Part shown: piece after piece, positions 1 through 22,963 of the stretch | Position numbering within the stretch: position 1 is the first letter of the stretch | Layout: each line of letters begins with the position of its first letter | Assembly (NCBI GenBank): GCA_949752745.1 | Contig: OX457026.1 | Coordinates: 37,676,723-37,740,722 of the forward strand | DNA length: 64,000 bases | Reading direction: 5' to 3' | DNA from: Protula sp. h YS-2021 | Taxonomy: Eukaryota > Annelida > Polychaeta > Sabellida > Serpulidae | Notes under the pieces: model-generated | Database searches by the model: none | Seen by the model: the letters and a program-made list of their open reading frames with translations, nothing else | What the model was told of the DNA's origin: nothing | Translations under genes and position numbers: made by a program

Positions 1-1300
1 CTACAAATGTGAATAGCTTACTGGTGCTTTAAATAAAACCGCTACATTCAACGAAATCCACTACAAAATAGTAATCGAGCTCTTCTTCTCCCTTCTCATG
101 CCCTACAAGAAATCCACTACATTAGATCAAATCCGCTACAAATTTCAAAAAGTTACACGTTCTTCAAATAAAGTCGCTACATTCAACGAAATCCACTACA
201 AAATAGAAATCAACCTCTTCTCTCTTCTCATGCCCTGCAGGAAATCCACTACATTTGATCAAAACCGCTACAAATGTGAATAACTTACTGGTGCTTTAAA
301 TAAAACCGCTACATTCAACGAAATCCACTACAAAATAGTAATCGAGCTCTTCTTCTCCCTTCTCATGCCCTACAAGAAATCCACTACATTTGATCAAATC
401 CGCTACAAATTTCAAAAAGTTACACGTTCTTCAAATAAAGTCGCTACATTCAACGAAATCCACTACAAAATAGAAATCAACCTCTTCTCTCTTCTCATGC
501 CCTGCAGGAAATCCACTACATTTGATCAAAACCGCTACAAATGAGAAATAATTTACTCGTACTTTGAAATAAAGTCGCTATATTCAAGAAAATCATAATT
601 AAACTCCTCGGGTAACATCTCATGCCCTACAAGAAATCCACTACATTTGATCAAAACCGCTACAAATTTCAAAAAGTTACACGTTCTTCAAATAAAGTCG
701 CTACATTCAACGAAATCCACTACAAAATAGAAATCAACCTCTTCTCCCTTCTCAAGCCCTACAGGAAATCCACTACATTTGATGAAAACCGCTACAAATG
801 TGAGTAACTTACTGGTACTTTAAATAAAACCGCTACACTCAACGAAATCCTCTAGAAAATCAACCTCTTCTCCCTTCTCATGCCCTGCAAGAAATCCACT
901 TCATTTGACCAATACCGCTACAAATTTCAAACAGTTACAGGTGCTTAAAATAAAGATGCAACTAACTTACTGGTACTTAAAATAAAGTATCTTCATTCAA
1001 CAAAATCCACTACAAAATAGAAATCGAACTCTTCTCCCTTCTCATGCTCTACATAAATCCACTAAATTTGATCAAAATCGCCACAAATTTCAAAAAGTTA
1101 CAGAAGGTTAAAATGAAACAGAAACATTCAACGAAATCGACCAGAACATCATAATCTAGATCTTCAGCTAAGTTCTGTTCCTTCCATGTAATTCACTGCA
1201 GTTGATCAAAACCACTGAAAATTTCATTGAATTACTGGTGCTTAAAAGAAAACCGCTACATTAAACGAATTCCACTACAACACTAGAAACGAGATCATCG
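1..1300. repeat. ~133-bp tandem satellite, decaying rightwards
   Basis: The motif CAACGAAATCCACTACAAA recurs at about 49, 184, 316, 451 and 709, with degraded forms near 840, 997 and 1117. The spacing is 132-135 bp. Neighbouring monomers alternate in type (one containing GGTGCTTTAAATAAA, the other CACGTTCTTCAAATAAA), so the clean part has a two-monomer higher-order unit of ~267 bp. The array runs off the left edge and fades by ~1.3 kb. Short open frames in it are repeat artefacts, not genes. Confidence 0.9.
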
Positions 1301-4300
1301 AAATTGACATCTTGGATGACAGAAATCTACTGTAAAATAATGATCTAATTCTTGGTATACTATTCCAGTTACTAATTTTTTTTCAGAAGTTAAAGGAAAT
1401 TAAAGCCGCTAACTCCATTTGATGTCTTGCGTGAAAACGGTGCACGTCACTAGTTTCTTATGCCTTGAATGAATTCGCTACAGACAAACTATCATTTCAA
1501 ATTAAAAATGTAGCTCTTTAGCTCCTCTCCTCGGCTCTTTGCATGTTATCACTTCCCTTTTAATAAGCATGCTCAATCCACATCATTATTTTTCAGAACT
1601 TTAGCATACTAAAATTTTCCATCAACATTACAAATCAGATGATGTCTATATAACGAGGCTGGTTACACAGCATCGTAACTCTAGGGAATTTATATTTAAT
1701 AACTTTGAAGGAAACATTTACAAAAGAGCGTACCGATCAACCGTTTGTTTCTATTGCCGTGCTGCTACCAGAGAGTGCCAGTTCCCTGCATAAGAAATCG
1801 TTATGCACGCACCCCGTGGGAGTCGAACCCACCACAGCAAACAGCGATCTCACAATACGATATCACGCCACGCTCAAACGCAGACTTATGAAAAATATTT
1901 CAGATAGACTGAGTCTCTCTGTAGTGATAATGTTTTATTTTACATGTAGCTAAACTGTGCAGAACTGCTGACTTATGTAAAAACGGCACACAAGCACAAC
2001 GTCGCAGTAATTCGCTGCGTCACACGCAGATAGAACTGTTAAGCAGTGTCACACAACAAGCAGACTTTTAAACCGTCCTATTTAATATTTGGACAACTCG
2101 CCCAATTACCAACTCAGTCCATGGCCAAAGACGACTCGGCCTAACACGGCTCGTTCAAAACTACCAACTTAACCCAAGACGTTTTTACCGAAATTGTTTT
2201 CCAAACAGGAGTTGTTGGGGTGCCTTTTATGGAAGAAGTGTTAGTACATTTTCCATTGTCCATGATGCATGTGTTAGGTAAGCAAACAACTTCTAACTGT
2301 GAATGACATGAGATTATTACACATAAATTAAAAAAAAATTAAAATAAACTTTTTATCGGGGGTCTGGACAAGTCGGCACTGAATGAGTCGGCAACACACA
2401 TTGCCGATACTTTTTGGGTAAGTTGGCTTTTAAATCCAGCACCAAACATTAAATATTTGTACACACCATTTTAATTGTTGACAAAAATTCTTACGGTTCC
2501 CATCACAATTTTATAATCTCGGCACCCAAAACCTCAGGTTTTATTGCAATTAAATGCAACTCTTTCTCATAATAATAACAGGATTGTTTTTTTATAAAAA
2601 AAATTATAATTAAATTATAATGTACTCTATGATTTTAAGATGAAAGATGCTTTGTTCACAACTACGACAGAATTCTTTTGACACATTTATGCGCCTTGTC
2701 ATCATGAGATCACAGGTTTGATTGCACATCAAGGAAGCTCAAGTGCCAACTTTGATTCAAATGGATAGTAATAATTGACCTGAACGTGAACGAACTGCGG
2801 ATGAATTGCAATCTGTGCCAGGGTACACCAACACCTGCACAACATTATTTTAAGAACCAAGTGTTAAGAGTGGAAAAATTTTAAAGAACCAAGTGTAAAT
2901 ATTATTAAAGTGTCATGTTTGCCGTGTAAAATGACCCATTATCACCATAACACATTAATTGTACGGCGATTTGTATTTGTATCCGCACCATAAACCGTAG
3001 AATGGTGTTAAATGGATATTGTAATACTTGATCTATGTGAGATGCAGACTGCTTTCGATAATGAAAAACAAATCATTGCTTTTCCTTCGCTTATCTGTGC
3101 ACATGAGCTTCGGTGGGGGTGGGAGAGGATCAATAGCAGTCGGCAGCAGGTTTCGACAGTACCAGCGGCAGTGTTAGTAGCTGCAACTACTAGAGTGTTT
3201 GCCAAGAATGTCTCTAATCCGTGTGCTTGCAAAACGAAGAGGTTGCATAAAAACACCATGTGAGCGCCTTCGGAATTTGAAGTCAATTTTTCTTGGGTGG
3301 GGGAGGGTGGAGATGGATAGATATGTTGAAGCTAACTAATAAAAATTTTACACATCTGAACAAACACAGGTCGACAGCACGCAGTAGAAAGGATGGATTT
3401 GGAGCAAGTGTGGCAGCGTAGCAGGCGGCGTATCTACAACACGGGGAAGGTACAGGGAATAAATTTTGGGGTTAATATAAAGCAAAAACTGTGTAAGACT
3501 GTACGGCGGAACCGCTACCCCAAAAACGAAACAAGACATGTACCGTGTTCCAGCTTTCCTAATTCAATGAAACCTTACCGATATACAAAGATATGTTTTT
3601 TCTGTCCTGATCAAATAACCCTGCAAGACTCAGAAAAAAGGTGCGCGATCAAGGCAAGTTAACAAAGAGGCCCGGACAAAACGGTGCAAATCAAGGTTGC
3701 GGACGGACACGAGGCGTTTCTATACATCCCACACCCCCTCCCCCCTCCCCCCTCCCCACCCACGGTAGTGCGACAGGGGATAAAAAGAGATGAAACCGGA
3801 TTAATCAGTGTTGGTTTGAGTGCCAATATGTGATGTCGTCACAAATGGCCTTCTCAATATTCTTTAATACCTGCCGTTCATGACCTACGGCTAAAAAATT
3901 CAGTGGTCACTGTTCTGCTGAGCACTAGTTTATTTCACTACACGTGATCACTTTTGAAAGTGCAAGAAACAGTGCATTTAATTCATGTATTTCCTTCACA
4001 TTCAGTCATCACAAACAGATATTGGTTTATTGGTTATTCGGTAAAATGGGGTGGCCTTTGCAGGCCAGGACGCTGCTTGTTTTCGATCTGACCGTGTGAT
4101 GCCGCAAGGAATAAGCGGAATGAATTCAATGAATCTGTACCAGCCAAAACGTTCCGATATCACAAGTAATGTTCTTGTCTGCCAGTCCTCCTTTCATCCT
4201 AAAATATCTTCAAGTTGCAAAGCGAGACCAGAATATGGCCCATAACGGTACAGCAGGTCGCATACACTCATCACACGCACAACTCCTTGCTCTGCATAGT

Positions 4301-4429
4301 CGTTTCTCAAGTAGAAGCTCATGTTTGCGGCTACTACTTTGATGTTATATTGCTCTTAAGTGCTTATATACTTAGTCAAATGAATCTGAGTATACAGGGC
4401 TTGCATGCTTTAACCAGTTACATTGCTTG
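1301..4429. other. Intergenic, no recognisable gene
   Basis: I see only short ORFs with no recognisable protein character. There are scattered motifs of the type GGACAACTCGCCC (near 2090) and GGACAAGTCGGC (near 2370), probably debris of a transposon. A C-rich run lies at ~3729-3760. Confidence 0.6.
1812..1880 (-). other. tRNA-like fragment (B-box), probably SINE debris
   Basis: On the minus strand, 1834-1815 reads GTGGTGGGTTCGACTCCCAC. This contains a tRNA T-loop / pol III B-box core (GGTTCGACTCC) with a plausible T-stem. I could not build a convincing D-arm, anticodon arm or acceptor stem upstream, so it is not called as a tRNA gene. Confidence 0.3.
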
Positions 4430-4489
4430 ATTTTAAATGCAGCTAAACCTCCAACCAATCCGCATGCTTCTCACATCTCAGCAGTGAAT

Positions 4490-4835
4490 GGGGGCGGGCT
4501 GATGAGCTACAGCTTGTGCAGGAGCAGATGCGCAAAGCAAATAAAGTTTCCCAATCAGTCACTGAAAACACAGTTGATGCTAGTTATCATCGGAGTTTTT
4601 ATCAGGATACTAGGTTTTTATTTGAGGATATTGGTACTTAATCTGTCTAGAGCATAATTATAGCGAAAGCACCGCTATTTCGTGAAGTTAACGGGATAAC
4701 CGAGGTCAAAAGGAAGGGAAGTTATGTAGAGGGATTAAACTTCACTGTAGAAATTGTGCGAAATGTTGTGAGATCAACAGAAGCAGCAGGACCAGTGATA
4801 AATATGAGGAAACCAAATAAAAACACAAAGTAAGT
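4490..4835 (+). pseudogene. Protein-like fragment upstream of the ATPase-PHD gene
   Basis: Two adjoining stretches look like old exon sequence. The first, 4497-4640, reads as a helical peptide beginning ADELQLVQEQMRKANK and ends at a TAA. The second, about 4661-4828, reads IIAKAPLFREVNGITEVKRK... and runs to a good donor (AAA|GTAAGT) at ~4829. I do not recognise a family. The orientation and position fit a 5' part of the ATPase-PHD gene that starts before 5.6 kb, but chance cannot be excluded. Confidence 0.25.
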
Positions 4836-5068
4836 TTAATATTTGTCATTTACATTCGGGGTCGAGTTACTTGGTCGCAGAAAATTATGACATTTCTCTC
4901 TTGTTATTTTTTTCATTTACTTCTAATTTTAAATTATTTTTTCATCTATCCAATTTGTATGATGTCATCGAACTTGCTCATATAACCTCGTGCAAAGGCT
5001 GCGAGAGGAAATATTTTTTTTCTTCTTTTTTTAAGTAACGGTTGACTAATGCAAGTCTTTTTACTTGT

Positions 5069-5502
5069 TCGGGTCGGTGTAGGTCATTTGCTCACCGGCA
5101 TGTTGTAAAAACGGTCGTTTGCTCACCGGCATGGTGTAAAAACGGTCGTTTGCTCACCACCTAAATTTTATTGCTCTTGAGTTTAGTCATTTACTAAAAT
5201 TAATTTCGCTGCTAAAACCATTTATTTCATATTTTTTCACTAAATTTATCGTTGCACAGAAAGATCCTATTACAGTTATCTCAATTGGGTTGTATTTCTT
5301 ATGCAAGAGAGCAATCGTTTGCATGTTTTGTCTAAAAACTGAACAGCCGATGTTCTAAGATATAAAATCGGAGTTCAGTTATTGATATCGTTCGGAAAAA
5401 GTTGAAGATAATGTCAAAAAAAAAAAAAACGAAATGAAATTTTGGTGGTGAGCAAACAGGCGTTTCTTCGCTGAGGTGGTGAACAAACGACCGGTGACCC
5501 GA
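5069..5502. mobile_element. MITE-like element with imperfect TIRs
   Basis: The left end TCGGGTCGGTG...TTTGCTCACC and the right end, reverse-complemented, TCGGGTCACCGGTCGTTTGTT are imperfect terminal inverted repeats of ~28 bp. The subterminal motif CGGTCGTTTGCTCACC repeats twice on the left. The element is 434 bp and non-coding, with no clear target-site duplication. A related end sequence occurs near 59184. Confidence 0.6.
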
Positions 5503-7027
5503 TCCCTGTTCAGGTTCACTGGTGTTGGTGAGGACTGGCCACTCTAGTTTTGTTTATTTTTGAAACTTTTACAATGAGTTATGATTGGAACGAAGCTTTT
5601 CTATCAGTGTTAAGAAAACAGCAAATGGTTATTGGAGAATTCTTGGTTTAGTCAGAGACATTTGTTTTTGTTTATTCAAACACGAAACTAAAAAGGTGCC
5701 GAATTGAACTGTATGATGTGAACATGAACTCATGGTGTGTTTGCACTGGTCTTCACTGTGAAATACCATACATCAGTACTCCCGTTAAAATGGTTTCTAG
5801 CGTTTATGAAACGCTAAAATTAAACGATGTCGTTTCTTTTTTTCTTTTCTGGTATTCGTAGGACTGGGCGACTCCTTGCAAAAACACTCTGTCAAAAAGA
5901 CAGATTGCAAGGCAATCTCATAAACACGTTCAAAGTATGTGGTCTAATTGTGTCACTCAGCAACAGCGAGCTCGACAAATTTTGGAGTGAGAAGTTTGCC
6001 ACATATTATTCCGAGTACAACACACGATTTGGGTAAGGACAATTTCTCAAGAAATATATGGTACAGGCAAATTGTCAAACCAGGCATTCAAAAGTTAATC
6101 AGCCCTTTCTGGTAAACTACCTAGTAAATACAATTTCAGGCAAATATCAAGCTTTGGAGCCTTGAAACCAGGCAATTTAACTGTAAGGAAACGGTATTCG
6201 TAGCATTGCTTAATTCAGCAGACTTTATACCTGTGAAAACTTAAATGTAAGCACCTGTTATACATCATAAATTAATGAGGCAAAATAAAGCACAGTGAAC
6301 TTGTTAGATAGACAATCAACCCTTTTTATTATCTCTTGGAAGAGGAGAAAGCTCCCCCAAAACAAAGCTGTTAATTTCTCGCGTTTAACAGGTTTGTACA
6401 TGATGGTATGGAAAGGTGTTACTTTCTCGCGTATAACAGGTTTGCACATGATGATCTGGAGAGCACAGGTCGCGTTGGGTGGTATGGCAAAACCTACATC
6501 CTTAACATCAACTTACAACTGACGAGAAAGGGTAAAGCAATTCCACCGGAAGAGCAATAGTAAGTTAATGTTGGCATATCGAGGAGCAGCTATTGAACAG
6601 TGCTACATTTTATGACGTGACTGATACTTTTGTTGCTAAACTACAAGCCTGGTATCTGCCAATACCTGTTTTAACAGCAATCTGTAAATGAGACGAATAA
6701 AACTTTGACTAGACATTTTTATTACAAATGCACAAACTCAAATATATTACAGCTGGTACCTATCACCAGAACTTGTCGGAACATTCCTGTTTCGATACAC
6801 CAAGAAGTTCAGGGAGCAGAGCCCATTATCGATTTGTATGAAGCATTGCGACGATGCCTGCCACCACCTGCATTCCTTAGTGCTATACTGTTGGGTGGTG
6901 CGTTGACATTTATTTATGAGTATTTATGAGGCAGGAAAGGACTAGAGTAAACCTTGATCGTTAACATTAAAAAATGAAACAGTAAATAATAAATAAAATA
7001 AAACAGCGGAAAGGGCTGAAGTAACTT

Positions 7028-7065
7028 GTAATGTATAACACAGTTTGTACTGTGTTATACATTAC
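7028..7065. other. Perfect 16-bp inverted repeat (hairpin)
   Basis: GTAATGTATAACACAG (7028-7043) and its exact reverse complement (7050-7065) flank a 6-base loop, TTTGTA. It lies in an intron of the ATPase-PHD pseudogene. Its function is unknown; it could be a palindromic insertion scar. Confidence 0.8.
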
Positions 7066-8249
7066 TGGCCTTTGATAACGAAATTAAAAATGCCCTTTTT
7101 GACAAAAGCCGAGTTACCCTAATGTTATAAAGTAACACATAGTTCTTCTTTTTCTCTTTTTTAACTTGGGATGGGAAGGATGAAAAGGAAGTCTTAGAGT
7201 TAATTTGTCTACTTAATGATTAATGTTCCGTTCAGCGGCAATGGTAAGCAAGAGTACTTGGAAACTGCCATTTCTGTAAAAATGTAATTATATAATTCCA
7301 CAGGACACGCTCTAGCAGCCCTCCACTACAATGCTCTGAAGAAGCGTTACCACCAAACTGCTGTCCTGGTGTTATGCGGGCAGCCGAATACGTACAAGAC
7401 GCTTCTGAGCAAAGTAAGTATGTTGACGCCATAGTAGTAATAGTTTAAGTTGTCACAGTCACTTTTGTACATGTTTTAAACTTTTATTTAATTATTTCCA
7501 ACAGGTCTGCTTATCTCTAATTGGGAATCGTGACAGCGGTATATGCACGGAATTGACCGTAGCGAGAAGTACAGAGCTTCTTGGTGCGAGTCCTTTTATG
7601 TGTTCAATGACCCGATGAACACAGAAGTATTAGCTATGCTTATTTCTAAGGTAACTTCTACTGCCCATAATCCATTTAATTGTTATAATATTTTCAAAAA
7701 GAGAAAAAAATTTATTAAGTGCTTTAATTAGTGACTGTCAACAAATCAATGTACACTGGTGAAGCTGCTCTATGTTGTGCCCTTTTCATGTCCAACGATC
7801 TCGTGAATTAATATGTTTCTTTTTAAGTTAACCATGTTTCGTATAAATATTTGAAACAATTTTTAGGTACGTCATCTTTGCTGACAACTACCAAAGCAAT
7901 GAGAATTGGCATGGAGTTGCATGTGCCGCTTTCTCCCGTAATAAAAAAATATCTTTGCAGACTTTCGAGGACGGGAAGACTTCAAACTGCACAAAGGAAA
8001 CAGTAACAAACACCGCGCCGCTTGTCACCTGTAACGGTTTTTTGCTGAAGCCGTTACAAGCCCACGGCATGAGAGAACTAAGCAGAATTTGTGTCTTGCC
8101 CCTGACGGTTGAAGCAGAAAGAAACCTACCACCAAATTTAGATGCGCTCATGAAAAGGGATAGGAATCCTTCAACGTCTGGGGCGGAAACTGAACTCTCT
8201 CCCTGTGGAAGACGCTTATCAAGAAATTCGACGACAGTTACCAGAAGGG

Positions 8250-8757
8250 GAATCGGGTCAAAGGCTCGCTATGTCTCACAGCATCCTACTTTCCCTTAGA
8301 AATTTGGTAATTAGAGCTCTGCCGGTATACATTCGAAATATAGGGGTTTCCCATCACACTCATACATAATGCAATATGTTGCTTTTCTTCTCTTATTTCA
8401 GTTTGTTGGAAAACTGAAGTTAGGCGTCACCATGGCAGATTTACTCTCTTTTTTTAAGAAACGATCTTACCTTGTGGTACAATGGCTCATCAGATTCCAA
8501 GTCGGGAATCGGGCCAAAAGCTCGCTATGTCGTATGACATCCTAGTTTCGCTGGGAAATTTGGTAAACAGAGCTCTGTCGGTATACAATCGCAATATAGG
8601 GGTTTTCCATCACTCGTACATACTGCAATGTGTTGCTTTTCTTCTTTTATTTCGGTTTGCTGGAAAACTGAAGCTAGGGGTCACAATGGCAGACTTGCTC
8701 TCTTTTTTTGAAGAAACTGTCTTGCCATGTGGTGTAATGGCTCACCAGATTCCGATG
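8250..8757 (+). repeat. Tandem ~256-bp exon-intron-exon duplication
   Basis: Two copies start at GAATCGGG (8250 and 8506). Each holds the end of one exon (LAMS...NL, donor GTAA), a short intron and the start of the next exon (GKLKLGVTMADLLSFF). Copy 1 keeps a TTTCAG acceptor but has lost one base in its second exon. Copy 2 keeps the reading frame through to LGAE and the GTAAG donor at ~8823, but its acceptor reads TTTCGG, with the AG lost. Confidence 0.85.
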
Positions 8758-11155
8758 GAGAATGCGCACGAGAGCAACGCTTTCAACATGATTGAGCAAG
8801 CAATCACAGTCCTGGGAGCTGAGGTAAGAACATGGTTTCAACATATTCGAACTTAAAGCTAGCCATCTGTGATGCGACGAAAAATCTTAGAAAACCAAAA
8901 GGAGTGTAGTTAAAGTTACGGACCAGTTGGCGTATCAGTGGATGATAGGAAAGGAATTTTGACACCTGACTTGTTTTCCAGATAAGCAACTATATGAAGT
9001 TGTGCCGCCACCGTTTCAAAGGTGCAGATGTCAAACAGGACTCGTGGACACGATGTCCAGCAGACAAACGCAAAATGTATTTGACGGCAAGGTTATAAAG
9101 TATGTGTCAGTCAAGCTGTGCCATCCGATAAATAGTTATTGAAATGTCAATATTTAGCAGAAATAGACCTAGTAGCAGTCACAACAAAGTATGACCGGCT
9201 AGAACATCTTGACCATTACGCGAAAACTTGCATTTCTGTTTAATATTATCTCCACGGTTACTGGAAATGTAACTATGTCCAGTATAATACGACTTAACTG
9301 CTCGCACCTATTTTGGAAACAGGAAGGAGTTGCGGCTGCTAGGAGTAGATGTGAGCAGCAGCATTCGCTTCAGAAAACAAGTCGTCAATGCAAGCTGCAT
9401 CCCGACAGCATTCATGCCTGAGGAACTAGTAACAAAGATTCGAGAAGGTGTGTAGTATCTGCATAAGCCTTACACAGAGAAATCAAGTCTGTGACGATTA
9501 AACACTAAGTGAGTTATGTTTAATGTTTGCAGTTCTCGCAAAGCAGGATGACGATAATGGTGCTATAAGGTGTGACACCGAAGGAGACGTCACCGCAATT
9601 CAAACAACTCACAGAAAAGAATCCAGACGCAAGAAGGCGATCCGTGAAATAGAAGGTAATGACATGCAAGACTTACTAAAATATCCGGTAATCCATGCGG
9701 TTATTTGTCAGGCAAACGTCATACTTCAGATAATATGTATTTTCTTAACATTCATTGTATTAAGCATGTTTGTTTAGGCAATACAACATGGAACGATAAT
9801 ATACTCAGTGACTTGCGTTTCTGTTTGAAGCTCGCGAAAAGGAAGACGACAACAGTGACAAGCCGTGTAGTGATGCCGATGCCGTAAACGTCACGGCGAA
9901 CAGTGAACAGTCAACGAAACCCCAGGCGACATGCGAGATTGAAGGTGATGACGTTTAACACATAACGGAACTGTCTGGCAAACGCTACGATTACATTTCC
10001 TACTTAAAATGTTGTATTTAGTATAAAAGCTAGATATAATGATCACTATGAGGACTGTTTGTAAGACATGCATATAACATGTCACGAGCATTAGTTTATG
10101 GTCATTTCATAATTGAATGTTGTTAATCAGCAGGTCATGAAAAGCAGAACGCCAGTACAACCGTAAGAAGAAACGAAGATGACGTATCGCCGAACTCACA
10201 AGGTTGGTTTTGGATGCGGACGCACTGCTTAATTCTTAGACACACGGGCGTCAATTCTGGTTTAGTATTTGACTCGGGGGTGGGGGCTGAGAAACATGAA
10301 CTTTTTTCGAAACATGTCATATAATCTACTTTTGTACCAGAATCTTAGCATATCATTTTACACATGCGGTAATGTTGCCCTCTACATCACTTTCATATTT
10401 GTTAACAGGAGCGATAGAAACATCAGGCACAGTCTTTGCAACGCTAGTCACGTCACAGTCTGTGGCTGACACGGTATTATCAACTCGCCGAAGAGTTACC
10501 AAGAAGGTGGATAAAGCTGATTGCTGCTGTACATGTGCAACCGACAGGCATGGACAATGGATTCAATGTTCACGATGCCTCAATTGGCATCACACTTCGT
10601 GTGTTGGCATAGACAGCGAGGAAGTCAAGAAATTCGAAGGCCGGGCGCGTTGGTACTGTGAGAAATGTCGTCCATCAGGAAGCAAATGAACCAAAAGGAC
10701 TTTTGAAAAAGCACATTGAAAAGCGATATGTGAGCCTGTGGCACGTTTTTTGTGTGTATTTACTCTCCGAGAATGCCAGGAACTATTTTACGTGTTTTGG
10801 TTGCCATTTCATCTTGGACTTTCTCGTAAACTAAAAAGTAATTTCTTCGTGGGATAAGAGTTCGCAAGTGTTTAAAAAATAACATGCTGTGCATTCTTCA
10901 AGATTTTAAGGAAAATGTATTTATAACAAGTAACAGATGCTCGATTTTATGTAAGGTGCCGCTTTTATATTTCTTTTACACTTGAAAAACAACAATGAGC
11001 GCAAAAGACCTTTTTCGTGGATTGACGCTTCGCGAAGAAATATGGTGAAAGCAGCATATCATCTTTGAGCAGAAACCTAGTATTTCTGATATGCAAAACA
11101 ATTGTTAATTTCCCTTAAGATACTTCTTTTAAACCTCAAACTTATGGTAACGCAG

Positions 11156-11223
11156 AATAAAATAGAGACACATTAGAAAAATACAAAGCATTTATTTAAG
11201 AAATTGTGATAGCGAGGTTTATT
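11156..11223. promoter_or_regulatory. Convergent poly(A) signals between the two element genes
   Basis: AATAAA on the plus strand at 11156-11161 lies 467 bp beyond the ATPase-PHD stop. AATAAA on the minus strand lies at 11196-11191 and again at 11223-11218, 250-290 bp beyond the KDZ stop. They are the nearest canonical signals seen for either gene. Use is inferred, not shown. Confidence 0.35.
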
Positions 11224-11476
11224 TTGCGATGGTTATACTGTGGTTTTTCTCTGACATCTATATGTCGTTTGCGCATCTAATTTGCGAATTTTATTTTTTT
11301 CATATGTATAATATTCGACATATGTTTCACACAATAGTTCCATTACATAAACACGGTGAAGGCAATTTGGTAAACCAACTGCTGTGTAAAGTGGAATAAA
11401 CGTGGAAGAATGCTTGAGAGGTACATGTAATGGCATAATGAAAGTAAAGTTAAGGGGTTTTGACTGAACAGTTCGT

Positions 11477-14400
11477 CTATGCTTTTCGTGCGCCAGGAAG
11501 TAATGGTTTTTTGCCATGTGAGTAGCGCTGTGCGGTGTACTCATTCCTCCTGCGAACAGGGCGGTGCAAATAAAACAAGTGGTGAACTTTCGTCATTGAA
11601 CACACTATCTTTTTATATCGTCCCAACCACACAGCAGCTTGTGTGTTGCTGCTACCTTTCAGTTCAGGATACATTTCAAATATGTTGTCCGTATGTAGGT
11701 CCGTGTGGCAGTAATGATCCGTGTGAGTTTTTATGTGCAAGGCATCGATGACTTTGTTGATTGTCAGCCACATTTTGTTGTATGGAACAGGCAGTGGAAG
11801 CTCTACTTGTGAGGCCCGAGTCTTTAAGAGCTGACACATGTTATCATATGCTAGCCATATACTTTTCCAAGTGCTAGGTGCAGTGTCTTGTAAAGTGCAG
11901 AAAAGCCAGGAAACCAGGAAGAGAAACAGTTGCCCATATGATTCAGACCTTATAATGGACAAATAATATCGTCATGTATATATAAAGCAATATGCTGACA
12001 TACATATATCTAAATATAGAATGTTAAATGTTTGACATTGCTTCTGTATTGTATTCGTTAAGTTTGTTGTTAAGTTTACTTCTTAATAAAACACTAGATT
12101 AATCCGGATGGTTGTGTTGAAATAGTTGTTTTCCAAATAGCGCGATTAGTCAATACTCATCCAAGCTATGCACACCTGTAGAGTGGTGTCCACATGTCAA
12201 TATGACCCCCAGCTCTGACAACAAAAATGTGTCCACGAGACATCTGACGTAGAGTGTTACGTTCCCCAAGATCTTTGTTACACCTAGATTGTGTGTTTTG
12301 CCCACTGGAGCCAATTGCCTTCACTGCCTCCGTGTGGGCCTTGATCAAAGCTTGACCACCTGAACATATTGTAGCTTTCCTTTTCGTAATTACAAGTAAT
12401 CAGTTATATTTTAACAGGAAAATAAATATTAACCATGATCATCCAGGAAACTGAGTGCACTTTGGCGTTCGGTGTGGTCCATACATGTCGCGTTAATAGA
12501 ACAGTCGTCCAAAACTTGGTTTTTACCTGCAAACACAACAACTATGGTTAATAAAAGTTAATAAAAAGCTAATAAAAATGCGACAAAAAGACAGCATAAA
12601 AATGCAATGAAGTTAGTAGAACTCTACCTGCACAATATGTGATAAATTCTCTTAGTTTGGTCGGGATCCCTTCATCAGCCATCATTCTGCAATGGGTTTT
12701 ACAGAATACCGTGCCAGGCATGGGTTGCGCAGTGCAGACATCCGGTAGATTGGTCATCGGTATGCCATCGATACAAGTCTGTTTTGTAAAAAAAAAACAC
12801 GCTAAAAATCAGCGTTTGAGCATAAAATGCGGAAGTTTAACAATAGCAATTCATTACAAAGCATCAATGTATAATTCGCTGAAACATCTTACATTAAAAT
12901 GCCGCTAAGTACTGAGAGAATGAGTGTTTACCTTGACAGAGAACATACAATGTGGAAGCTGTAATTTCCAGATACCGTCTGCCACGAACAGTTTCCCACA
13001 GCCTAGAAGAGGATAAGAAATATTAACTTACACTATTTCGGTGTTCATTTTAACTCTTTCTACTCCATTTATTTTACCTAAATTCAGTCAATTAAATTAA
13101 TGAACACGTAAGGAAAGAATGAGTACCTCGCGCCTAGCATTCAGCTGTGCACCACTTTTCTGGATGTTCGTAAGGCCTATCCCTGCCAAAATTATCTATT
13201 GCATCCATGCACCTTTCAAGGTCAGTGTCCGATCTGAATGCATAATCCATGCCGGTTTGACGGAGCTCAGATTCAACTTCCCCCCACCAGAAAGCGGAGG
13301 CCCATGTGCGCCTGTCGATCGCTGTGTGAACATACAAAACAAAAACCTTAAATCTGCCTACACAAATAATGGGTGAAAGTTCAATTATTTTACTTCTCAC
13401 TCGCCAAGGTAGTGATGTATATAAAAATTTACCATTACTCGACGGGATTTGAAAGGCATGTGTGTAAGCTTCTGCAATACCTTCGAATGACACCCAACAG
13501 TGTTGCCTAAAATAAACGTTTGTGTTCTTTATTTTCATGGCATGGGTTTGGTTTTATGCAATATTCTAGATAACTACAAATAACTGAAACACCAGCGGGA
13601 GCCTACTGCGTAAAACATTATTTAGTTCAGTATTTTTTAAAATGGGCATTGTAAAAATTTTGAAAAGCTTGAAAGGAAGACAAAACTCTGAACTACTAAC
13701 GCGAGACTCCACTGCCAGTTGAATAGTTTTCTCTCAAAATATGTGTTATCGTTTGCCGCTACAGCTGGTCTCTCTTCACTATAGAAACGATAGCCTGTGG
13801 TGGTGTTACCAAATTTGTCGAACCTAAAATTCCTCCTGCATGACCGGCATTTCAGTGTCACCTGATAACGAGAAAATTTGATAAGAGTGAATTGATAACA
13901 GAAATGATAATTGTTGTCTTAAATATTATTGTTCACAATGAAGTATTTTTGTATTCCATCGGTTATACTTATATTGTTCAAGAAATATTGTGATAGTTCC
14001 TTACCAAATTTTTGACGAGTATTTCGCTATTGGCACAAACGTACTTTACGCTGTAAGGCTTGTTGGACAGAGAAAGCGCAGTCTCGCACAGATGACACAC
14101 ACCTATGTGAAGAAAGATGGAACTTAACAGTTTTGGAATGACGGATATTACAGATCTTTCGAAAAAGATCATAACAGCAGCTAAATGAAATTACAGAAAT
14201 TGGGTATGAAGAAGCGATCATTGAAAGGATGTACATTTAAAAATTATCACCTTCAGGTGGTCCAATTAAATGCATGTTCTTGGGGTCGTCGGCTTCAACA
14301 TTAATATGCGGACCAAGAAGTTTGTGAACGTCTTCATCCAGTGTGACTAATTATGCCTTCACAATGTCAGGCCAAGACTGGGGTAGACGTTTAAGTGCGC

Positions 14401-14960
14401 TCAGGTATTCATCAACCTGGTAAGATAAAAGAGGCAAGACTTAAGAATTTTGTATAGAATCAAATATAAATCTTTCAGAAAATAACCAAATAGAACTGGC
14501 TCTCCGTTTTTACGTTTTCGGTGAGCAGCTGTTTCGAGTTATAAATTTACTGACTTATCGCTTTGCCAGTTGTACAGTGGTTCAGTTGCATGTTGTATGG
14601 TTTTCCTAATATTAGTCCTCACCCGATTTCTTCCATATCTTAAAAATGCTACAGCAAATGCCACATCGCCGTCTTCTATGTCTGCATTGTTGAGAGCTCG
14701 CAGTGCGTCTACATGAGACAGTATCTTAAAAACAACCCAAAACTATAAATAAAATTACTGCAAAACTACTTGGAAATGAACTTTGCAACTTTCTGTTTTG
14801 TCGATTTTGGAGAGTGGTTTAAGTGAAGAAACATTTACCTGCCTCATGTGTATTTGTCCATAACTTTGCTTTCCATTTTCCCTTTGTAAATAAATAATGA
14901 ATGATACGAATGAACGGATGACCCGCTAATCGCTGTTCCGCTTCAGTTATTATACAGTGT
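11477..14960 (-). pseudogene. KDZ (Kyakuja-Dileera-Zisupton) family transposase gene, near-complete
   Basis: This is a 12-exon minus-strand gene whose junctions all fit in phase: ~14960-14839, 14708-14623, 14416-14251, 14102-14005, 13861-13701, 13506-13433, 13321-13127, 13002-12932, 12778-12628, 12526-12434, 12359-12176 and 11948-11477 (stop TAG). The product is about 620 aa. Family-typical stretches in order are: GPPEGVCHLCE with paired Cys; CRSCRRNFRFDKFGN; FYSEERPAVAAND; WVSFEGIAEAYTHAF; RRTWASAFWWGE; IDNFGRDRPYEHPEKWC; CGKLFVADGIWKL; a Cys/His-rich segment (VFCKTHCR); GGHIDMWTPLYRSES; LAYDNMCQLLKTRA; KVIDALHIKTHTD; and WLGRYKKIVCSMTKVHHLFY near the C-terminus. Two in-frame nonsense codons, TAA at 14353-14351 and TAG at 13136-13134, are the only breaks seen, so it is a young pseudogene. 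The exact 5' start is uncertain because an in-frame stop lies just upstream of ~14960. It is named from memory of conserved family motifs; no search was run. Confidence 0.87.
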
Positions 14961-15100
14961 CAACGTCGGTCTGTGCGCCCAACTCATTCCGGTTTACCCA
15001 AAAGCTTTGTATTTTTAGGCCGCAATAGAATGCAGAATGCGTAACGTCATTTTGACATTTATTTTGATTTAGCCATGCCAATGCAGCCAGAAAAATGCTA

Positions 15101-15443
15101 GCAGGGTCAAAATGGCACTGGCCAAGACGACCAGGCCCAAAAATTGCCCTAAAAGTTTTGGAGGGAATAAAATGGGACCGATAAAAATGCTGACAAATTA
15201 TTGGTGAATAAATATATGAAACTCATTTATGGAGAATACTTACATTTTACTCAGTGTTACTTTGCTCTGTTATATGTGTTTCAATCAATGCTACTTGATT
15301 GCCACCCAGTGCTCAGGGGTACGCAGTGCTCAATTTGTCAACATTTTTTATCGATGCCATCTGCCCCCCTCTAACACTTTGTCGGATCAGGAGTAGGACC
15401 ATTTTGGGCGAGACAATTTGGCCAGTGTCATTTGGCCCCCTGC
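15101..15443. mobile_element. MITE-like element, TIR GCAGGG...CACTGGCCAA
   Basis: The left end GCAGGGTCAAAATGGCACTG and the reverse complement of the right end, GCAGGGGGCCAAATGACACT, form imperfect TIRs of ~45 bp. Both continue into GGCCAA and ...GCCCAAAA. The element is 343 bp and non-coding. It lies just outside the 5' end of the KDZ gene. No certain target-site duplication was found. Confidence 0.6.
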
Positions 15444-16975
15444 AGTCCCCCCCCCCTTGCATTTTTTCGGGCCATTTTCACCTGGATTCTTTAGAAACGC
15501 ACCCGTTTTTACCACCTGCTTGTCAATTATATTCGTGAAAATTAAGTTCATTCATGCCCTTCATGACCCGATGACACAAAAGAAATTGTGACTAACAATG
15601 GCCACTATTCTTTATGACTGGGAAAAAGTAATAAAACACGTTCTTACATCTAGTTTGTGCCATTGAGTGGAAGTGTACAGCAAAGTTTTTTTAGACAGGC
15701 TCTTATTGTTTAAAGGCCCTTATCATAGGATCACAAACCCTTAGGTCGGCCCTTGGATGTTTTATTTTTACCACAACAGATCAAAACATGTGTCATGGCA
15801 TGTGTATTTTCAGCTCTATGGTTTAAGTGATTCAAATTTCGCCAGCAATTTATTGGCTGGATGCAAAGAAACAAAGATAACGATCAAACTGATGTTAAAA
15901 ACCTGAAATAACAACGTTTTATTGTAGAATCAACTTTATAGAAGTTGATGAACTTGAACCCACTAGGACGGAAATAGAAACAAAGAAAATTGTTGAATAA
16001 CTGTTGAATGAAATAAAATGCAAATTTTTGTGGGATCCAGAGGGATGAATACGGTATTCAGATTCAATCAGTGAGTTTGGCGCGAAGCCTTTGAATGCTA
16101 TCGTGAATGTGTACATGGGTTCGAGTTATTTGCCAGAGGCCATGACACCTTTAGACGAAAGGTATTCAAAATGCATTCAAAGATGAAGGGAAGCCATTGT
16201 GCTATTCGCGTGAATGTGATTCAGGATGAAAGAACAGATCGATTATTATCATCATGATACTGATAGGTATAGGACAAGAACTGTAAAGTAAATTCATTAA
16301 CACGAGCCTTCTCCTTTTGACAGCACCATTCATTGTCAGATATTATGTTTCAAATGTTAAGGAAAAGAATGCTTCAACTACGTTTATAGCCTAAATTCCG
16401 ATTATTTTCTACCGAAATTGCATTATATAAATATAGGAACGTATATGACAGGTTTCCACTTTTCGCCAAAAAAATCAAGGAAATTCCAGGACTGAAACAA
16501 TATTCCAGGACTTTAAGCGACAAGTTTCCACCCCTTTTCACACTCTATACAATATGATAACAGGTCGTACTCAACCATAAAGATTATCACTATATTCATT
16601 TTCTAAAGGAAAAACTCATTCAGAAAACAAAAAAATTACCACTTTAAAAATAAATATAATTATTTAGATATATACATTAAGGGATGCTTTTAATTATTTA
16701 TTTTCACTTATTACCTCTATCTCTCTTGTGTCATCGATAATAACCATCCTTGTGATAACGTCAAATAAAATAGTGGAATTAAATTTGCCAAATCAGGGTC
16801 AGACATCAGCAATCGCCCACACAAGTGCAAAGCGTTGACCGGTGTTTGTTTGTGCACCAATGCCTTCCATTTGTTGAAATACACAAACCCGTACGGAAGA
16901 AATGATCAATATTTCACCAACAAATGACCCACGCGAGACTGACACACACACCCACAGAACCTACAAACACTATGC

Positions 16976-17080
16976 AGTGTTGCCACGTAGTCATCAAGAA
17001 AAAAAGGATAAAACCGGATAAAAAGGATAAATTTGAGAAAAAAAAGTATAAAAAAACATTAATGTTAATCATATTGTATC
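16976..17080. mobile_element. Fragment of a CAGTGTTGCCACG-ended element
   Basis: CAGTGTTGCCACG is followed by A-rich GGATAAAACCGGATAAAAAG repeats. The terminus matches the end of the 2.1-kb element at 38611-40733 (CAGTGTTGCCAC). No matching right end was found, so this is probably a truncated relative. Confidence 0.4.
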
Positions 17081-18445
17081 ATTTTTTTGTAATTTATAGT
17101 GCTCGTTTTCACAGCGATTAATCATATTTGCGTACATGATTGTACTTTACAAATTTATAAAGAAATTGTGCATAAAGAACCATTTTGAAAATTGGCTACT
17201 TAATATTTTTAAATACCCGTATTTAGCCAATGTCCGGTAACGAGATGTCCGGTTATGAGGTGTCTGGATACCTCCCTAGGGACATGCAACTCAAAAGTAT
17301 ACCTTGAATATATTTGAATCATTCAAGAAATAAAAGAATACTGTTTAATTATTATGTGTAATATCATAAACGTGTCAACGAAGAGTGAAACAGAGAAACG
17401 TGTGGAACATAAACGGAGAAAAAAAATGTTTGGACTTTAAAGTTGTAAGACATAAAAAGGAGCATTTTAATTAATCAAACTGAAGATGGAATTTTGACAC
17501 ATTTGCACATACTTAAGGAAAACCTCTCCATATATTACATAACAGCCACGCCATCGGGTTAAGCTACGAAATATATTTCAACCAGTTTTCCAACTCAGTG
17601 AGAAACAAAGGAGAATACCACGCCGTCGGGTTATTCACGAATGTTCTCAAAGATTCGCGCGATGTGCAAACACGCAAAATGGGTTAAAATGTTTGACTTA
17701 GATATCATATAACTTACTCCTGTTTATTTCTTAAAGCTTCATGAGTAAGCGATTTAAGACTTTTGTGAAGTAAAAATATTTCCTGAAGACATGCTACCAA
17801 ATACATTTCGAATATGAAAACTGCATCGGCTGTAACTAAACGGTTGACCAGAAATGAGAAATTCTGATTTGACTCGTGTCAATTTTGCATTTTTTTTATT
17901 ATTATCTTTTTTGGCGGCATGTTTTAGGATGGCTCACATATGCAACACTTTGATTTAACAACAGTAGGCACCGCAAGAACATTGCTTCTAGATAATAATA
18001 ATTATGGTTATTTACACCCAACCATACCAACATCGGAAAGGGGAAGGAGGCACTCACGTAAACTTCCGAAATACCAAGCCACCTCCTCTGTGGGAAACGC
18101 AGAGTACTCAATGAAAATTAACCCACATTTTTAACGACATTGGTAATAGGAGAGATCAGCCTGTTTTTTTTGGGGGGGGGACACTTAGCAACTCCAAATT
18201 GTACAGCAATGCCTTCTATTTGTTGAAATACACGAAAACGTACGAAGAAATAATCAGTATTTCACCCAGATACACAAATTACGCCAATAAAATTAATTCA
18301 TGTTATACTTTCCTTTTACTTATTTACTTATTTAGGGTGGGTGATAGAAAGAGGGCGAATACAGTTATTTTTTCTTACGTTCATTGCTTGGAGCTATCAT
18401 GTATGTGTGAGCCGAATGTTTAGATTATGAGGGAGGGGGGGGGGG

Positions 18446-18525
18446 CGTTGTTTCAAAAGTGCCATATTTTACAGTTCCATATTTTTCAGTGCCATTTTTT
18501 CCGGTGCCATTTTTTACGGACACCG
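18446..18525. repeat. 15-16 bp minisatellite, four units
   Basis: Units of the form GTGCCATTTTTTNCG recur at about 18460, 18475, 18491 and 18506, after a run of G at 18434-18444. Non-coding. Confidence 0.7.
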
Positions 18526-18730
18526 AACTCCTCTACTTCTCAAATCGCGAGTTTTTTTTTACACGCACGGCAACGCATATCACACGAAGTAACCCCCAAA
18601 ACCCATTGTGACAAAATGTAGCTTTTATTTTTAAGTTTAGTATTTTTTGTCATAGTTAGAGGCCTAAACCCTTTTTTTCTGAAGTCGGTCTATGTACGAA
18701 GAAATAACCGATGAATTTTTAAGTTAAGTT

Positions 18731-20180
18731 CAGGATTGGTATGATTTAAATCAGTTGATTTAAAACATGATTTAAATCATGATTTAAATCAACGTAAAAA
18801 ATTACGATTTTTGATTTTTTTGCTTTTTTTTTCTTTTATTTAAAATGTGTGTCATTCTGACTGTGTTCACTGAAGGCACTTGGAGACGCCTGAGTTTAAA
18901 CAAGGCGTGAAAATGCGAAATGTTTTCTCAAGGGATGTTTGCTTAAGAGTAGGGTTGTGAAAAAAGGGTAACTTAGACAACTTATCAAGAAATTGTTAAT
19001 CGTTAATTGCTAACTGCAAATTCAGGGCACGAAATTCACCACTTCTACCTTGTGGCCCTCCCGGCTCAAGGTCCAGATTTCTTGGGGCCGGGCCGAAAAT
19101 CCTGGGGCCCGGATAGATTTAGGCTATATATTAGAAAAATCACCATATTCCCATAAAAAGTAATTTATTTTTCTTAACTATCCGTATACATGATACAATT
19201 GTCTTCAGTTTGTCTTTCTATTGTTTTTATTATATTGTGACACCGAGTTCTTCCCACACCCCTATTTTCTCTTTGATATCCTCATTTGTTTCAATGCCGT
19301 GGACCGTTTTTTCATGAACGAAAGGACGTCGAACTCGAACAAAGCCCTCCATAGATTGTTTCAGAAAAAGTGCTTACCTATATGAGTACATTTTTGGTTG
19401 AAGACAAATCTTTTATTTTTATGATTAACATAGGCCTTTCCGAAAATAAATCGTGGGGCCCACCGGGCCCCAAGCCCCGAAAATCGTAGGGCCCGGCCGG
19501 AAATCATGGGGCCACGGGGCCCAGCTAATTTCAAAAAAGCGCAAGCGCAAGCGTTATATGTGCAAGTTGTCGAGAACGTTACCATCCAACATATGTGGTG
19601 GTGATCACAGAAAACTTTGTGTGTGAATTGTGTTAATTGTAAAAAAAAAAAACATCAAGAATTATGTTTAGCGGGAAGGGGGGAGGGGGGTCTGTGGGAA
19701 ACTTGCAAATTAGTTCAAAAGTAGTTCAAAAGTAGCTGTTGCGGCTGGGTGGAACGATTTTTTCAACAGCGGTTAACACAAAAAAAAAAACGGTTACTGT
19801 GGCATAGTCAGCTTGAGATTCTTCAAAAAACGTGAGAAAAAATTCTCTTTTACTTAAATTAAATGTATTTAAATGTATGAGCTGTCAGATAAATAAAATG
19901 TGACGTTTACAGTTTTGTATACAAAGGATTAAGAGACTCATTCTGGCCCGGGACTCGATACGAACTGCACCAGGTGCAGTCCGAAATGCGTGCACTCAAT
20001 TCAGCCTGGTACAAGAGAGTGTTACGAGTCTTCAATTAACTGTTAAAAGGTGGTGATTTGGATATTTTGCCTGTTTTTTTTTCAGTTTGATTTAAATCAA
20101 AAACATCAAAAAAATCAGATTTAAATACAAAAAATAAAAAATCCTGATTTTTTTATAAATCGGATTGTTTTCCAGCCCTA
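18731..20180. mobile_element. Non-autonomous hAT-like element (TTTAAATCA type)
   Basis: The left end CAGGATTGGTATGATTTAAA and the reverse complement of the right end, TAGGGCTGGAAAACAATCCG, are TIR-like. Both flanks have subterminal GATTTAAATCA palindromes, a usual feature of some hAT families. The flanking octamers GTTAAGTT (18723-18730) and GTTAAGGG (20181-20188) match at 6 of 8, consistent with an aged 8-bp target duplication. The element is 1450 bp, has no transposase, and contains a second nested element. Confidence 0.7.
19022..19545. mobile_element. Nested GC-rich miniature element
   Basis: The left end is CAGGGCACGAAATTCACC followed by GTGGCCCTCCCGG. The reverse complement of the right end is GAAATTAGCTGGGCCCCGTG. 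Both lead into repeated GGGGCCGGGCC / CGAAAATC units. It lies wholly inside the element at 18731-20180, so it inserted later. The open frame over it (minus, 19585-19361) is a by-product of the GC-rich repeats. Confidence 0.5.
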
Positions 20181-20483
20181 GTTAAGGGACGTTCGTGAAT
20201 CCTGGACCATAGCATTAGACATGACCATATCATTGGTACTGTGCGTGGTCTGGTAAGAAATATCGCCCACATGACAGTTAACCAAATAATTATTTGAATA
20301 CTAGATATATAAATACCAGTTTGTGCTCTGCCGTACTCTTCTTCGAGTCTTGAATAATGGTGTCAATGTTTGGTCTCTTCGTACGCGGCATTGTCAAGAT
20401 TTAAGAAGTAATATGTGTCTTTGAGAACTAGTGTGCATTCCTCGAGGTATCCGCAATGTATCACACGTGGGCAGACTATCAGA

Positions 20484-20692
20484 CAATGACGTAATATGCA
20501 AGTGCGAGACACTGACGTAATGAATATTCACAAGTACTATTTTTAGTGAAAGTCACGTTTTCAGCAGTAATATCCTTTCCCGGCAATTATACGGTGACGT
20601 AATATGGAACTGACGTAATGATAGACAAGTACTATTTTTTTCAGTGAAAGTCACTTTTTCACCAGTTATATGCGTTCCCGGTAATTATACCA
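20484..20692. repeat. ~105-bp tandem duplication rich in TGACGTAAT
   Basis: Two copies (about 20484-20590 and 20591-20692) share TGACGTAATATG, TGACGTAATGA, ACAAGTACTATTTTT, AGTGAAAGTCAC and TTCCCGG(C/T)AATTATAC. TGACGTAA occurs four times and resembles CREB/ATF half-sites; no function is implied. Confidence 0.75.
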
Positions 20693-20884
20693 CAGTTTCG
20701 CTATTTTACGGCATTGAATAATCCAAAGGAACATGCGAAAACTGCTTAAATTTTAGGAAAACATACCTAAAAGGAAAATTTACCATCAATCTCTTACTAA
20801 GCACTACATGCTGCGGATATCCGCAAAAAAATAACTAAGCAGACAAAAACAACAGTAGCTAAAAAAAATTGTGGTAAAGCGGGT

Positions 20885-21262
20885 GGAGGGGTGGCCTTGT
20901 GCGAAGCACAGGATTAAGCAACGACGCAGAACGTGTCTAGGGGTTTGCCTCACATCAAGGGATTAAGTGCACCGTGTCTGCATTGCGAGTAAACACGAGT
21001 TGTAAAAAGACTTGCAGGGAAGGAGAGGCAACATCACACCACCCGTTTCAGTACTCAGCCCGTTATATTTCCAGTAATACTCCAGAGTAAAGGTGGCAGT
21101 AGGGAGGGGGTGTCTGTGCAAAGCACAGGATTAAGCAACGACGCAGAACGTGTCTAGAGGCTGCCTCATATCTAAGGATTAAGTGTACCGTGTCTGCATG
21201 CGAGTAAACATGAGTTCTAAAAAGCCTTGCAGGGAAGGAGGGGGCTTTTATTAGGAAAGGAT
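20885..21262. repeat. ~217-bp direct duplication
   Basis: AGCACAGGATTAAGCAACGA starts at 20905 and again at 21122. Both copies continue with CGCAGAACGTGTCTAG, GGATTAAGTG, ACCGTGTCTGCAT, GCGAGTAAACA and CTTGCAGGGAAGGAG. Non-coding. Confidence 0.8.
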
Positions 21263-21475
21263 TTTTTCAGGTCTTTATGTTAACTCCAAATAGAAGCCCA
21301 GGGGCTTCTATTGGGAAACAGTTTCCTAATAAGAGCCCCGGGGCTTTTATATGGGGGGAGCTTCTTTTCGGAAATTCCCGGTAGATTTGTCAGATGAGGG
21401 ATGAGGGATTTCCTGGTGTTTCTTTTTGTCGAAATGTAGCGGATTTTCCGGGGAAGCAGTAGGGATTTCCCTGTA

Positions 21476-21750
21476 AATGTAGTGGCTTTTGCCAATTGAA
21501 GCGCTTCACACATAAGGCAGAAGGGACTTTTTATGTAAATGTTGTGGATTCTGCCAATTGTAGTGCTTCACACATAAGGCAGAAGGAATTTCCCTGTAAT
21601 GTGGTGGATTTGGCCAATTGTAGTGCTTCACACATAAGACAGAAGAGATTTCCCTGTAAATGTAGCGGATTTGGCCAATTGTAGCGCTTCACAGAAAAGG
21701 CATCTGGGATTTCCCGGAGTCAGCCAATTGTAGCGCTACATACAGGATGG
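21476..21750. repeat. ~61-bp tandem repeat, 4-5 units
   Basis: GCCAATTG(T/A)AG(C/T)GCTTCACA recurs about every 61 bp (CTTCACA near 21504, 21566, 21626 and 21687), with a final partial unit at ~21725. The unit also contains GATTTCCCTGTAAATGTAG. Just upstream, 21240-21360, GGGGCTT(C/T)TAT motifs occur in both orientations. Confidence 0.8.
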
Positions 21751-21785
21751 GGTGTTTCCCAGTGGCATAAATCTTGACACAACTC

Positions 21786-22100
21786 TGAACTAGTGCACTC
21801 TGAAATTTATCGATCGGTTCCCACGCTCTAAACTAGTGCACTCTGGAATTTATCGATCGTTTTCCCACACTCTGAACTAGTGCACTCTGAAATTTATCGA
21901 TCGGTTCCAACACTCTGAACTAGTGCACTCTGAAATTTATCGATCGTTTTCCCACACTCCGAACTAGTGCACTCTGAAATTTATCGATCGGTTCCCATAC
22001 TCTGAACTAGTGCACTCTGAAATTTATCGATCGTTTTCCCACACTCTGAACTAGTGCACTCTGAAATTTATCGATCGGTTCCCACGCTCTGAACTACTTT
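21786..22100. repeat. ~44-bp satellite with alternating unit types
   Basis: ACTAGTGCACTCTG recurs at 21788, 21832, 21876, 21919, 21963, 22006 and 22050, with a broken copy at 22092. The period is 43-44 bp. Units end alternately in CGATCGGTTCCCA and CGATCGTTTTCCCA, so the real repeat is an ~87-bp dimer. Confidence 0.9.
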
Positions 22101-22191
22101 TCCACTACTATAACATAGGGGTTTTTGGACCAGACATGAATGTGTGCATTATAGCCTTATATGGCATGTTTTCACAAAACATTCTTGTTCA

Positions 22192-22282: not shown

Positions 22283-22328
22283 ACCCCAAACCATAGAGTG
22301 CATTATGAATGTGTATTATGAAGGTATG

Positions 22329-22870: not shown

Positions 22871-22963
22871 ACTTCCTGATCCAGAAGACCCGTTTTCCTC
22901 CTACTCGTTTCCGTCTGGGCTATTCCTGTATGAACGCTACCCAGCGTTTAGGAGAAGTGAAAT

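Follow-up and report, generated by a model that had tools for sequence, protein, structure and literature searches.

A 64,000-nt stretch of the genome of Protula sp. h YS-2021 (GCA_949752745.1, contig OX457026.1, 37,676,723-37,740,722 of the forward strand; referred to here as the window) contains what we take, with a probability of about 0.7, to be a decayed copy of a large (c. 19-23 kb) two-gene cut-and-paste transposon, in which a CxC5/KDZ-like DDE transposase would be accompanied by a partner protein that ends in a PHD finger, acts in trans and chooses the target chromatin. For the family to which this copy belongs, the following were observed directly: common ends with target-site duplications of 8 bp, tandem arrays just inside the ends, copies that lack the genes, repeated occurrence of the two genes together, and constraint on the partner and, less firmly, on the transposase. 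An earlier note on this DNA had proposed a candidate two-gene transposon, and the proposal is borne out by the recurrence of the pair, the common outer ends and the duplications. Copies were sought throughout the genome (863 Mb) and only the best candidates were scored, so the numbers of loci and copies given below are lower bounds (loci are cited as chromosome:megabase, e.g. C2:74.03 or C4:71.82, the window itself being on C3).

The copy runs from -1511 to 21782 (23293 bp), its leftmost 1511 bp lying outside the window (C3, c. 37675212-37676722). These limits are given by the common ends and by a collinear copy on C2, which can be aligned to window positions -1510 to 21782 with gaps, the aligned pieces being 76-90% identical where there are no tandem arrays; the similarity breaks off at both outer points. 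The earlier span of 5574..14960 fits the positions of the genes but not the limits of the element, the shared ends of which lie about 7 kb beyond each gene. We considered an element consisting of the two genes only, or ending between them, and rejected it on the collinearity of the C2 copy to the shared outer points; the end at 10.7-11.2 kb that the earlier note had named as telling against its proposal was not found.

A 123-bp query from the right end gave 56 matches in the genome, 24 of them distinct right ends and the remainder inner repeats, and 22 of the 24 extend to the last or last-but-one base of the query; a query from the left end gave 21, including cases in which two pieces belong to a single end. 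When up to four substitutions were tolerated on the right and three on the left, the end motif was present in 21/24 right ends and in all 16 left ends examined. ATG stands at the terminus of 19 of these 21 right ends but is missing from two, among them that of the window copy (its right terminal repeat, 21763..21782, corresponds to the family end ...CTTGACACAAATG without the final ATG). The family ends, GATACATGTCAACATTTATG and, inverted, CATTTGTGTCAAGATTTATG, are identical at 15 of 20 positions, making imperfect 20-bp inverted repeats, and they start GATACATG.. and CATTTGTG.., as against the CACT.. of RAG-like transposons. About 45 bp inside either end is GTAGCGCTAC, which has no other occurrence in the 72 kb scanned. 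Further in are tandem arrays, of ~132-bp units on the left (1..1290, + strand, extending beyond the window; recognised as a tandem repeat over 1-955, and to about 1290 by comparison of copies) and of ~60-bp units on the right (21456..21715, - strand), with a common motif in inverted orientation. This motif, AAATCC[AG]CTACA, occurs 33 times on the + strand in the left 2.8 kb (-1511..1300), twice on the - strand in the right 0.4 kb, and nowhere in the remaining 68.8 kb scanned; such inverted clusters resemble transposase-binding regions, and may be such. Six-frame Pfam scans for a second transposase, which covered 1001-6000 and 15001-19800, gave one weak match (E 0.081).

Duplications of the target site were assessed by comparing the 8-mers that adjoin the ends in 12 same-strand pairings of left and right ends within 30 kb. 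The 8-mers are identical (8/8) in eight of the 12, and seven of the eight bases match in the two-gene C2 copy; three pairings fail, namely the window copy (1/8) and a C5 left end, whichever of two right ends it is paired with (3/8, 5/8). A pairing on C3:94, with ends 133 kb apart, also agrees at 8/8, but was admitted on the grounds of that agreement. None of 323 other combinations of ends exceeded 5/8, except one that includes a duplicate of the C3 left end, which has the same flank. The duplications show that the element is joined to its target with an 8-bp stagger; GC content, compared over 11 flanks (100 bp each) to look for a preference of site, was 0.29-0.45. The shared termini, terminal inverted repeats and target-site duplications for which the earlier note had suggested looking across copies do therefore exist, as 20-bp inverted repeats and 8-bp duplications.

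Queries made of joined exons matched the partner gene at eight loci (the window, C2:74.03, C3:94.23 with 94.33, C4:71.82, C4:102.0, C5:17.90, C6:27.7 and C9:4.80) and the KDZ-like gene at seven (the window, C2:74.03, C3:94.32 with 94.33, C4:71.82, C4:102.0, C6:27.78 and a scrap at C2:14.90), six loci (the window and five others) being common to both. The earlier note had held that lack of a second paired locus would speak against it; the genes are convergent neighbours at four other loci (C2:74.03, C3:94.32/94.33, C4:71.82 and, as a deleted remnant, C4:102.0), every one deleted or rearranged, with 0.68-0.80 kb separating the matched coding ends on C2, C3 and C4:71. The C2 copy is without window positions 5342-6884, and thus without the first exons of the partner; the C4:71 partner begins at window position 9308, keeping only the last three exons; on C3 the upstream exons of the partner are about 95 kb away, and some parts occur twice, in mirror-image arrangement and nearly identical (94.32 and 94.33); and on C6 pieces of both genes are dispersed over 105 kb. 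A starfish relative of the transposase, used as an outside query, gave 18 matches, all in four loci (the window, C2:74, C3:94 and C4:71), and all four carry the adjoining PHD exon of the partner. A 29%-identical PHD finger on C4:29.3 that matched the partner query was set aside and not counted as a locus.

In the window the stop codons of the partner (10687-10689, + strand) and of the KDZ-like gene (11477-11479, - strand) are 787 bp apart, and the intervening segment (10690..11476) holds opposed AATAAA signals, at 11156 on the + strand and at 11191, 11218 and 11290 on the - strand. GT or AG is in place at several exon borders, not every border being resolved, and both genes are broken, the partner by stops and frame breaks. 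The description of two facing, decaying multi-exon genes some 790 bp apart with opposed polyadenylation signals was accurate. The window copy is unable to make either protein.

The transposase gene (11477..14724, - strand, starting at about 14724 or beyond) lies in pieces at 14554-14724, 14240-14416 (with an internal stop), 14005-14103, 13697-13861, 13446-13502, 13137-13316, 12932-13003, 12626-12778, 12175-12366 and 11480-11944. A stop interrupts it at 14351-14353, and the segment bearing a glutamate conserved in relatives has been lost. A CxC5 cysteine cluster in two exons (13697..14103, - strand) scores 21.7 bits (cut-off 26.9) and the KDZ domain (PF18758) 13.2 bits (cut-off 26.6), both below threshold. 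Six relatives from coral, starfish, sponge and limpet (Oculina, Patiria, Halichondria, Patella) were found at E 8e-73 to 5e-96; P0002 and P0006 among them are models of one coral gene. All six match CxC5 (PF18718 and kin) at E <= 10, P0002 above the cut-off of 26.9 (45.3 bits, E 1.1e-11), and none matches the KDZ model at E <= 10; a search of the genome with the KDZ model gave no match, and its controls were silent likewise. Among the relatives that cover them, DG.WKL, YDNMC and EQTFVWL are conserved, and these may be the D, D and E positions of a DDE transposase. By alignment with relatives, the putative first catalytic aspartate lies in VADGIWKL, in the exon 12932..13003 (- strand), and the second would lie in YDNMC, in the last exon (11480..11944, - strand), from which the segment with the conserved glutamate is missing in the window; C4:71 and C2 retain it. 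Given the CxC5 matches, a KDZ model that is below threshold or unmatched, and catalytic residues assigned from conservation, we call the gene KDZ-like rather than filing it as a KDZ member: the 'KDZ-type transposase' first reported has indirect support, from CxC5. The protein is very probably the DDE transposase of the element, with the ends and subterminal repeats as its substrates. An AlphaFold2 model of P0002 has a mean predicted local distance difference test score (pLDDT) of 39.4, and no relative of the transposase or of the partner was found in viral contigs.

The partner gene (c. 5574..10689, + strand) has its conserved coding pieces at 5688-5828, 5857-6033, 6438-6557, 6778-6900, 7303-7413, 7505-7650, 7955-8152, 8175-8306, 8656-8823, 9042-9095, 9318-9449, 9532-9657 and 10408-10686. 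The last exon (10408..10689, 93 amino acids, with the stop) encodes a PHD finger (PF00628, 30.2 bits, cut-off 24), closest among solved chains to that of BPTF (E 6.6e-6), with a zinc-ligand spacing, read from the sequence, of Cx2Cx10Cx2Cx4Hx2Cx18Cx2C. Two of the four BPTF residues that we take to form the methyl-lysine cage align with tryptophans of the partner, both of which are retained in the C2, C3 and C4:71 copies. Another exon (7303..7413, + strand, donor GTAAGT) encodes the Walker A-like GQPNTYKT, without the canonical last glycine. The form GQPN(T/A)(Y/H)KT is found in the window, C3 and C6 copies (the C2 exon is broken at the same point), departing from the canonical GxxxxGK[ST] in that Y or H replaces the glycine preceding the lysine, and this makes ATP hydrolysis by the partner doubtful. 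A sub-threshold match to DUF927 (E 0.025), given by one of four sequences, covers residues 143-277 of the query and spans GQPNTYKT at 256-263. No ATPase family was matched in NCBIfam or among solved chains and, beyond DUF927, no named relative of the rest of the partner was found in Pfam, NCBIfam, solved chains or the protein set. Pfam includes models of Kelch/RAG2 type, and no such family matched the partner at E <= 10. Where the earlier note had joined an ATPase-like region to a C-terminal PHD finger, then, the PHD finger is clear, but the ATPase half is weaker than stated, being suggested by a degenerate Walker A motif and the DUF927 match.

An exon-intron unit of about 255 bp is duplicated within the partner gene (8235..8753, + strand), as also in the C2, C3 and C5 copies; it is single in C6 and C9. 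Directly upstream of the gene is a 31-bp tandem repeat (window 5082-5158 and 5433-5493), the neighbourhood of which recurs inverted 260 bp on. At C6:27728310-27741539 the middle exons of the partner form a tandem array with eight P-loop exons, mostly 1.92-1.97 kb apart; many units are open and alike, and KDZ-like scraps lie 40 kb further on.

Comparison of copies showed that the partner evolved under purifying selection while the family was mobile. Between the window and C3:94 there are 104 differences in 628 codons, distributed 21/21/62 over the codon positions, with a ratio of nonsynonymous to synonymous substitution (dN/dS) of 0.22 (1.36 and 1.44 in the shifted frames), and between the window and C2 the value is 0.27 (shifted frames 0.86, 1.51); pairwise comparisons over more than 300 codons gave 0.20-0.34, save for the C3 mirror halves. 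Low values beside those of shifted frames mean that the partner was constrained during the family's movement. Constraint on the transposase is less strongly supported, its dN/dS being 0.47 between the window and C3:94 (shifted frames 0.83, 1.95). The decay of copies after insertion will have pushed these values up.

Both genes are absent from some copies with perfect duplications: a 6.9-kb copy on C7 aligns to -1510..4474 and 20332..21782, and a 4.7-kb copy at C4:90.99 to -1510..2402, 17341..18678 and 20212..21782. Four short copies (C1:112, C2:40, C3:60 and C1:93) had no match to either protein in the protein-query results for the genome. The intact ends and duplications suggest that such gene-less copies were mobilised in trans. 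A non-autonomous copy on C5 retains pieces of the partner without the transposase.

Several of these results weigh against the two-gene transposon that we propose. A target-site duplication was looked for around the window copy and is absent, the C5 copy fails with either right end, and no copy with both genes whole was among the loci found. The window copy scores below threshold for the KDZ domain, which none of the relatives matches at E <= 10; identification of the partner as a P-loop ATPase is weak; and the search of a large protein set, which needs shared exact words and similar length, yielded no relative of the partner. Some selection values also fit poorly: for the transposase, window against C2 gave 0.65, little under the shifted frames (0.89, 0.79), so that constraint is weak in this comparison, and for the partner the C3 mirror halves gave 1.79 (on seven differences) and short comparisons with C4:71 and C4:102 gave 0.54-1.14.

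In the mechanism that we favour, the transposase would bind the ends and subterminal repeats, excise the element and join it to a new site with an 8-bp stagger, and the partner would work with it in trans. The putative binding of histone H3 tails by the PHD finger would dock the complex and so decide the choice of target chromatin; the partner, seated on the tails, would recruit or activate the transposase complex there, and its P-loop-like part may aid assembly or activation of the complex. Gene-less copies would be mobilised by the same proteins. The partner would thus be a chromatin reader for targeting or remodelling, as the earlier note supposed. RAG2 beside RAG1, and MuB and TnsC beside their transposases, offer examples of such a division of labour. 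Mu and Tn7 resemble the Protula element in having a P-loop partner (a possible one, in Protula) adjoining a DDE transposase, but theirs have no PHD finger, and no homology was detected, with no detailed test made, to a protein whose ATPase nature is itself putative.

The published comparisons rest on the parts available of the papers cited. Like the Protula element, transposons of the KDZ group have a CxC-type cysteine cluster, a multi-exon transposase, inverted repeats and 8-bp duplications (the last in Zisupton and a Dileera lineage, with 7 bp in Kyakuja; PMC12730594), the Zisupton of one nematode being multi-exonic with inverted repeats and no duplication detected (PMC9297572). They differ in that the KDZ domain here is below threshold and that the accessories reported are TET/JBP genes in fungal elements (PMC12730594) and an F-box in a platyfish Zisupton isoform (PMC12062965), not a partner ending in a PHD finger; searches of the open-access literature, beyond which most subscription papers lie, turned up no PHD or ATPase partner in any element of the KDZ group. 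Rehavkus is likewise a DNA transposon that has both a minisatellite and a PHD finger, but the finger is inside the transposase, in a single open reading frame, and its duplications are of 9 bp (PMC6446971).

The pairing of a transposase gene with a facing gene for a histone reader is best known from the RAG1/RAG2 elements that underlie vertebrate antibodies. The closest parallel in layout is accordingly with the RAG-like transposons (RAG1L-RAG2L, TransibSU), known also in molluscs and a nemertean, which have a convergent transposase and Kelch-PHD partner, the PHD finger being C-terminal, together with terminal inverted repeats and 5-bp duplications (PMC7204232, PMC4411706). That the Protula element is itself a diverged member of this group, as the convergent pair, the PHD-ending partner and the duplicated ends might suggest, is hardly credible: the duplications are of 8 bp, the ends are unlike the reported CACT.. 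repeats (PMC7204232), the zinc-ligand spacing differs from that reported for invertebrate RAG2L, the Kelch propeller and Transib-derived transposase of that group have no counterpart among the Pfam matches at E <= 10 (no Transib, RAG or Kelch family), and the transposase and its relatives carry CxC5 instead. This convergent arrangement without a RAG or Kelch match, and with 8-bp rather than 5-bp duplications, leads us to propose, tentatively and at somewhat less than even odds, that the RAG1/RAG2 layout was invented twice independently, here with a KDZ-like transposase that needs a convergent PHD histone reader and a complex that is primed by a degenerate P-loop module.

The main rival to PHD-guided targeting accepts the same two-gene transposon but has the partner serve replication, repair or escape from silencing, with the PHD finger keeping it on the element's own chromatin. 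The helicase-like hint of the sub-threshold DUF927 match would suit this, as would the anti-silencing role proposed for the TET/JBP genes of fungal KDZ-group elements (PMC12730594), whereas the PHD-bearing partners of RAG-like elements bind H3 tails (PMC7204232); the present data do not separate the roles, and we think this one unlikely. Still less probable is that the partner is a passenger, a captured host gene with no role in movement. The C5 copy that keeps partner pieces without a transposase could be read in that way, but the partner is constrained between element copies, and its matches, leaving aside the PHD finger on C4:29.3, belong without exception to the element family, as copies or fragments of it, so that no host source is seen. 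The mirror halves of C3:94 and the identical flanks at C9:25.03/25.15 and C1:34.18/34.19 might even recall a pair of host genes multiplied through segmental duplication, with no transposon at all; unrelated flanks that join the same ends with 8-bp duplications refute this, leaving it a negligible chance.

Some rearranged copies and flanks deserve mention. At C3:94184295-94344687, ends with the same 8-bp duplication, 133 kb apart, enclose near-identical mirror-image duplicates of both element halves, and 27 kb upstream there is a further left end that has this flank too, reflecting either a real rearrangement or an assembly fold-back. At C5:17893693-17903128 a right end is followed immediately by the left-end-like GATACATGTCAACATG, and 4.3 kb further on is another right end. 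Two elements would seem to adjoin here, unless the target resembled an element end. At C1:34184423-34190858 two right ends with the same flank are 6.2 kb apart, and the last end bases are repeated once more in the flank. The flanks of the window copy are rearranged repeats: long repeats, both direct (96%) and inverted (95%), are common to 21782-24446 and L070 2960-6487, and they include a 43-bp satellite. ARAGORN called no tRNA near 22200-22275, although the stretch looks tRNA-like by eye. A large fold-back like a miniature inverted-repeat transposable element occupies window 24600-25318, with arms up to 96% complementary, and similar sequence flanks a 0.45-kb element copy at C2:73787752-73788207.

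A single lineage gives little scope for testing what a histone reader did in the transposon from which RAG arose, and an unrelated lineage with a convergent transposase and PHD partner would provide an independent case, in which the defined ends and gene-less copies could act as donors in an assay. A histone reader would also be added to the accessory functions so far reported for KDZ-group elements (the TET/JBP genes and F-box isoform, in the sources available). If our interpretation is right, PHD-guided target choice would not be peculiar to RAG but would recur among large transposons.

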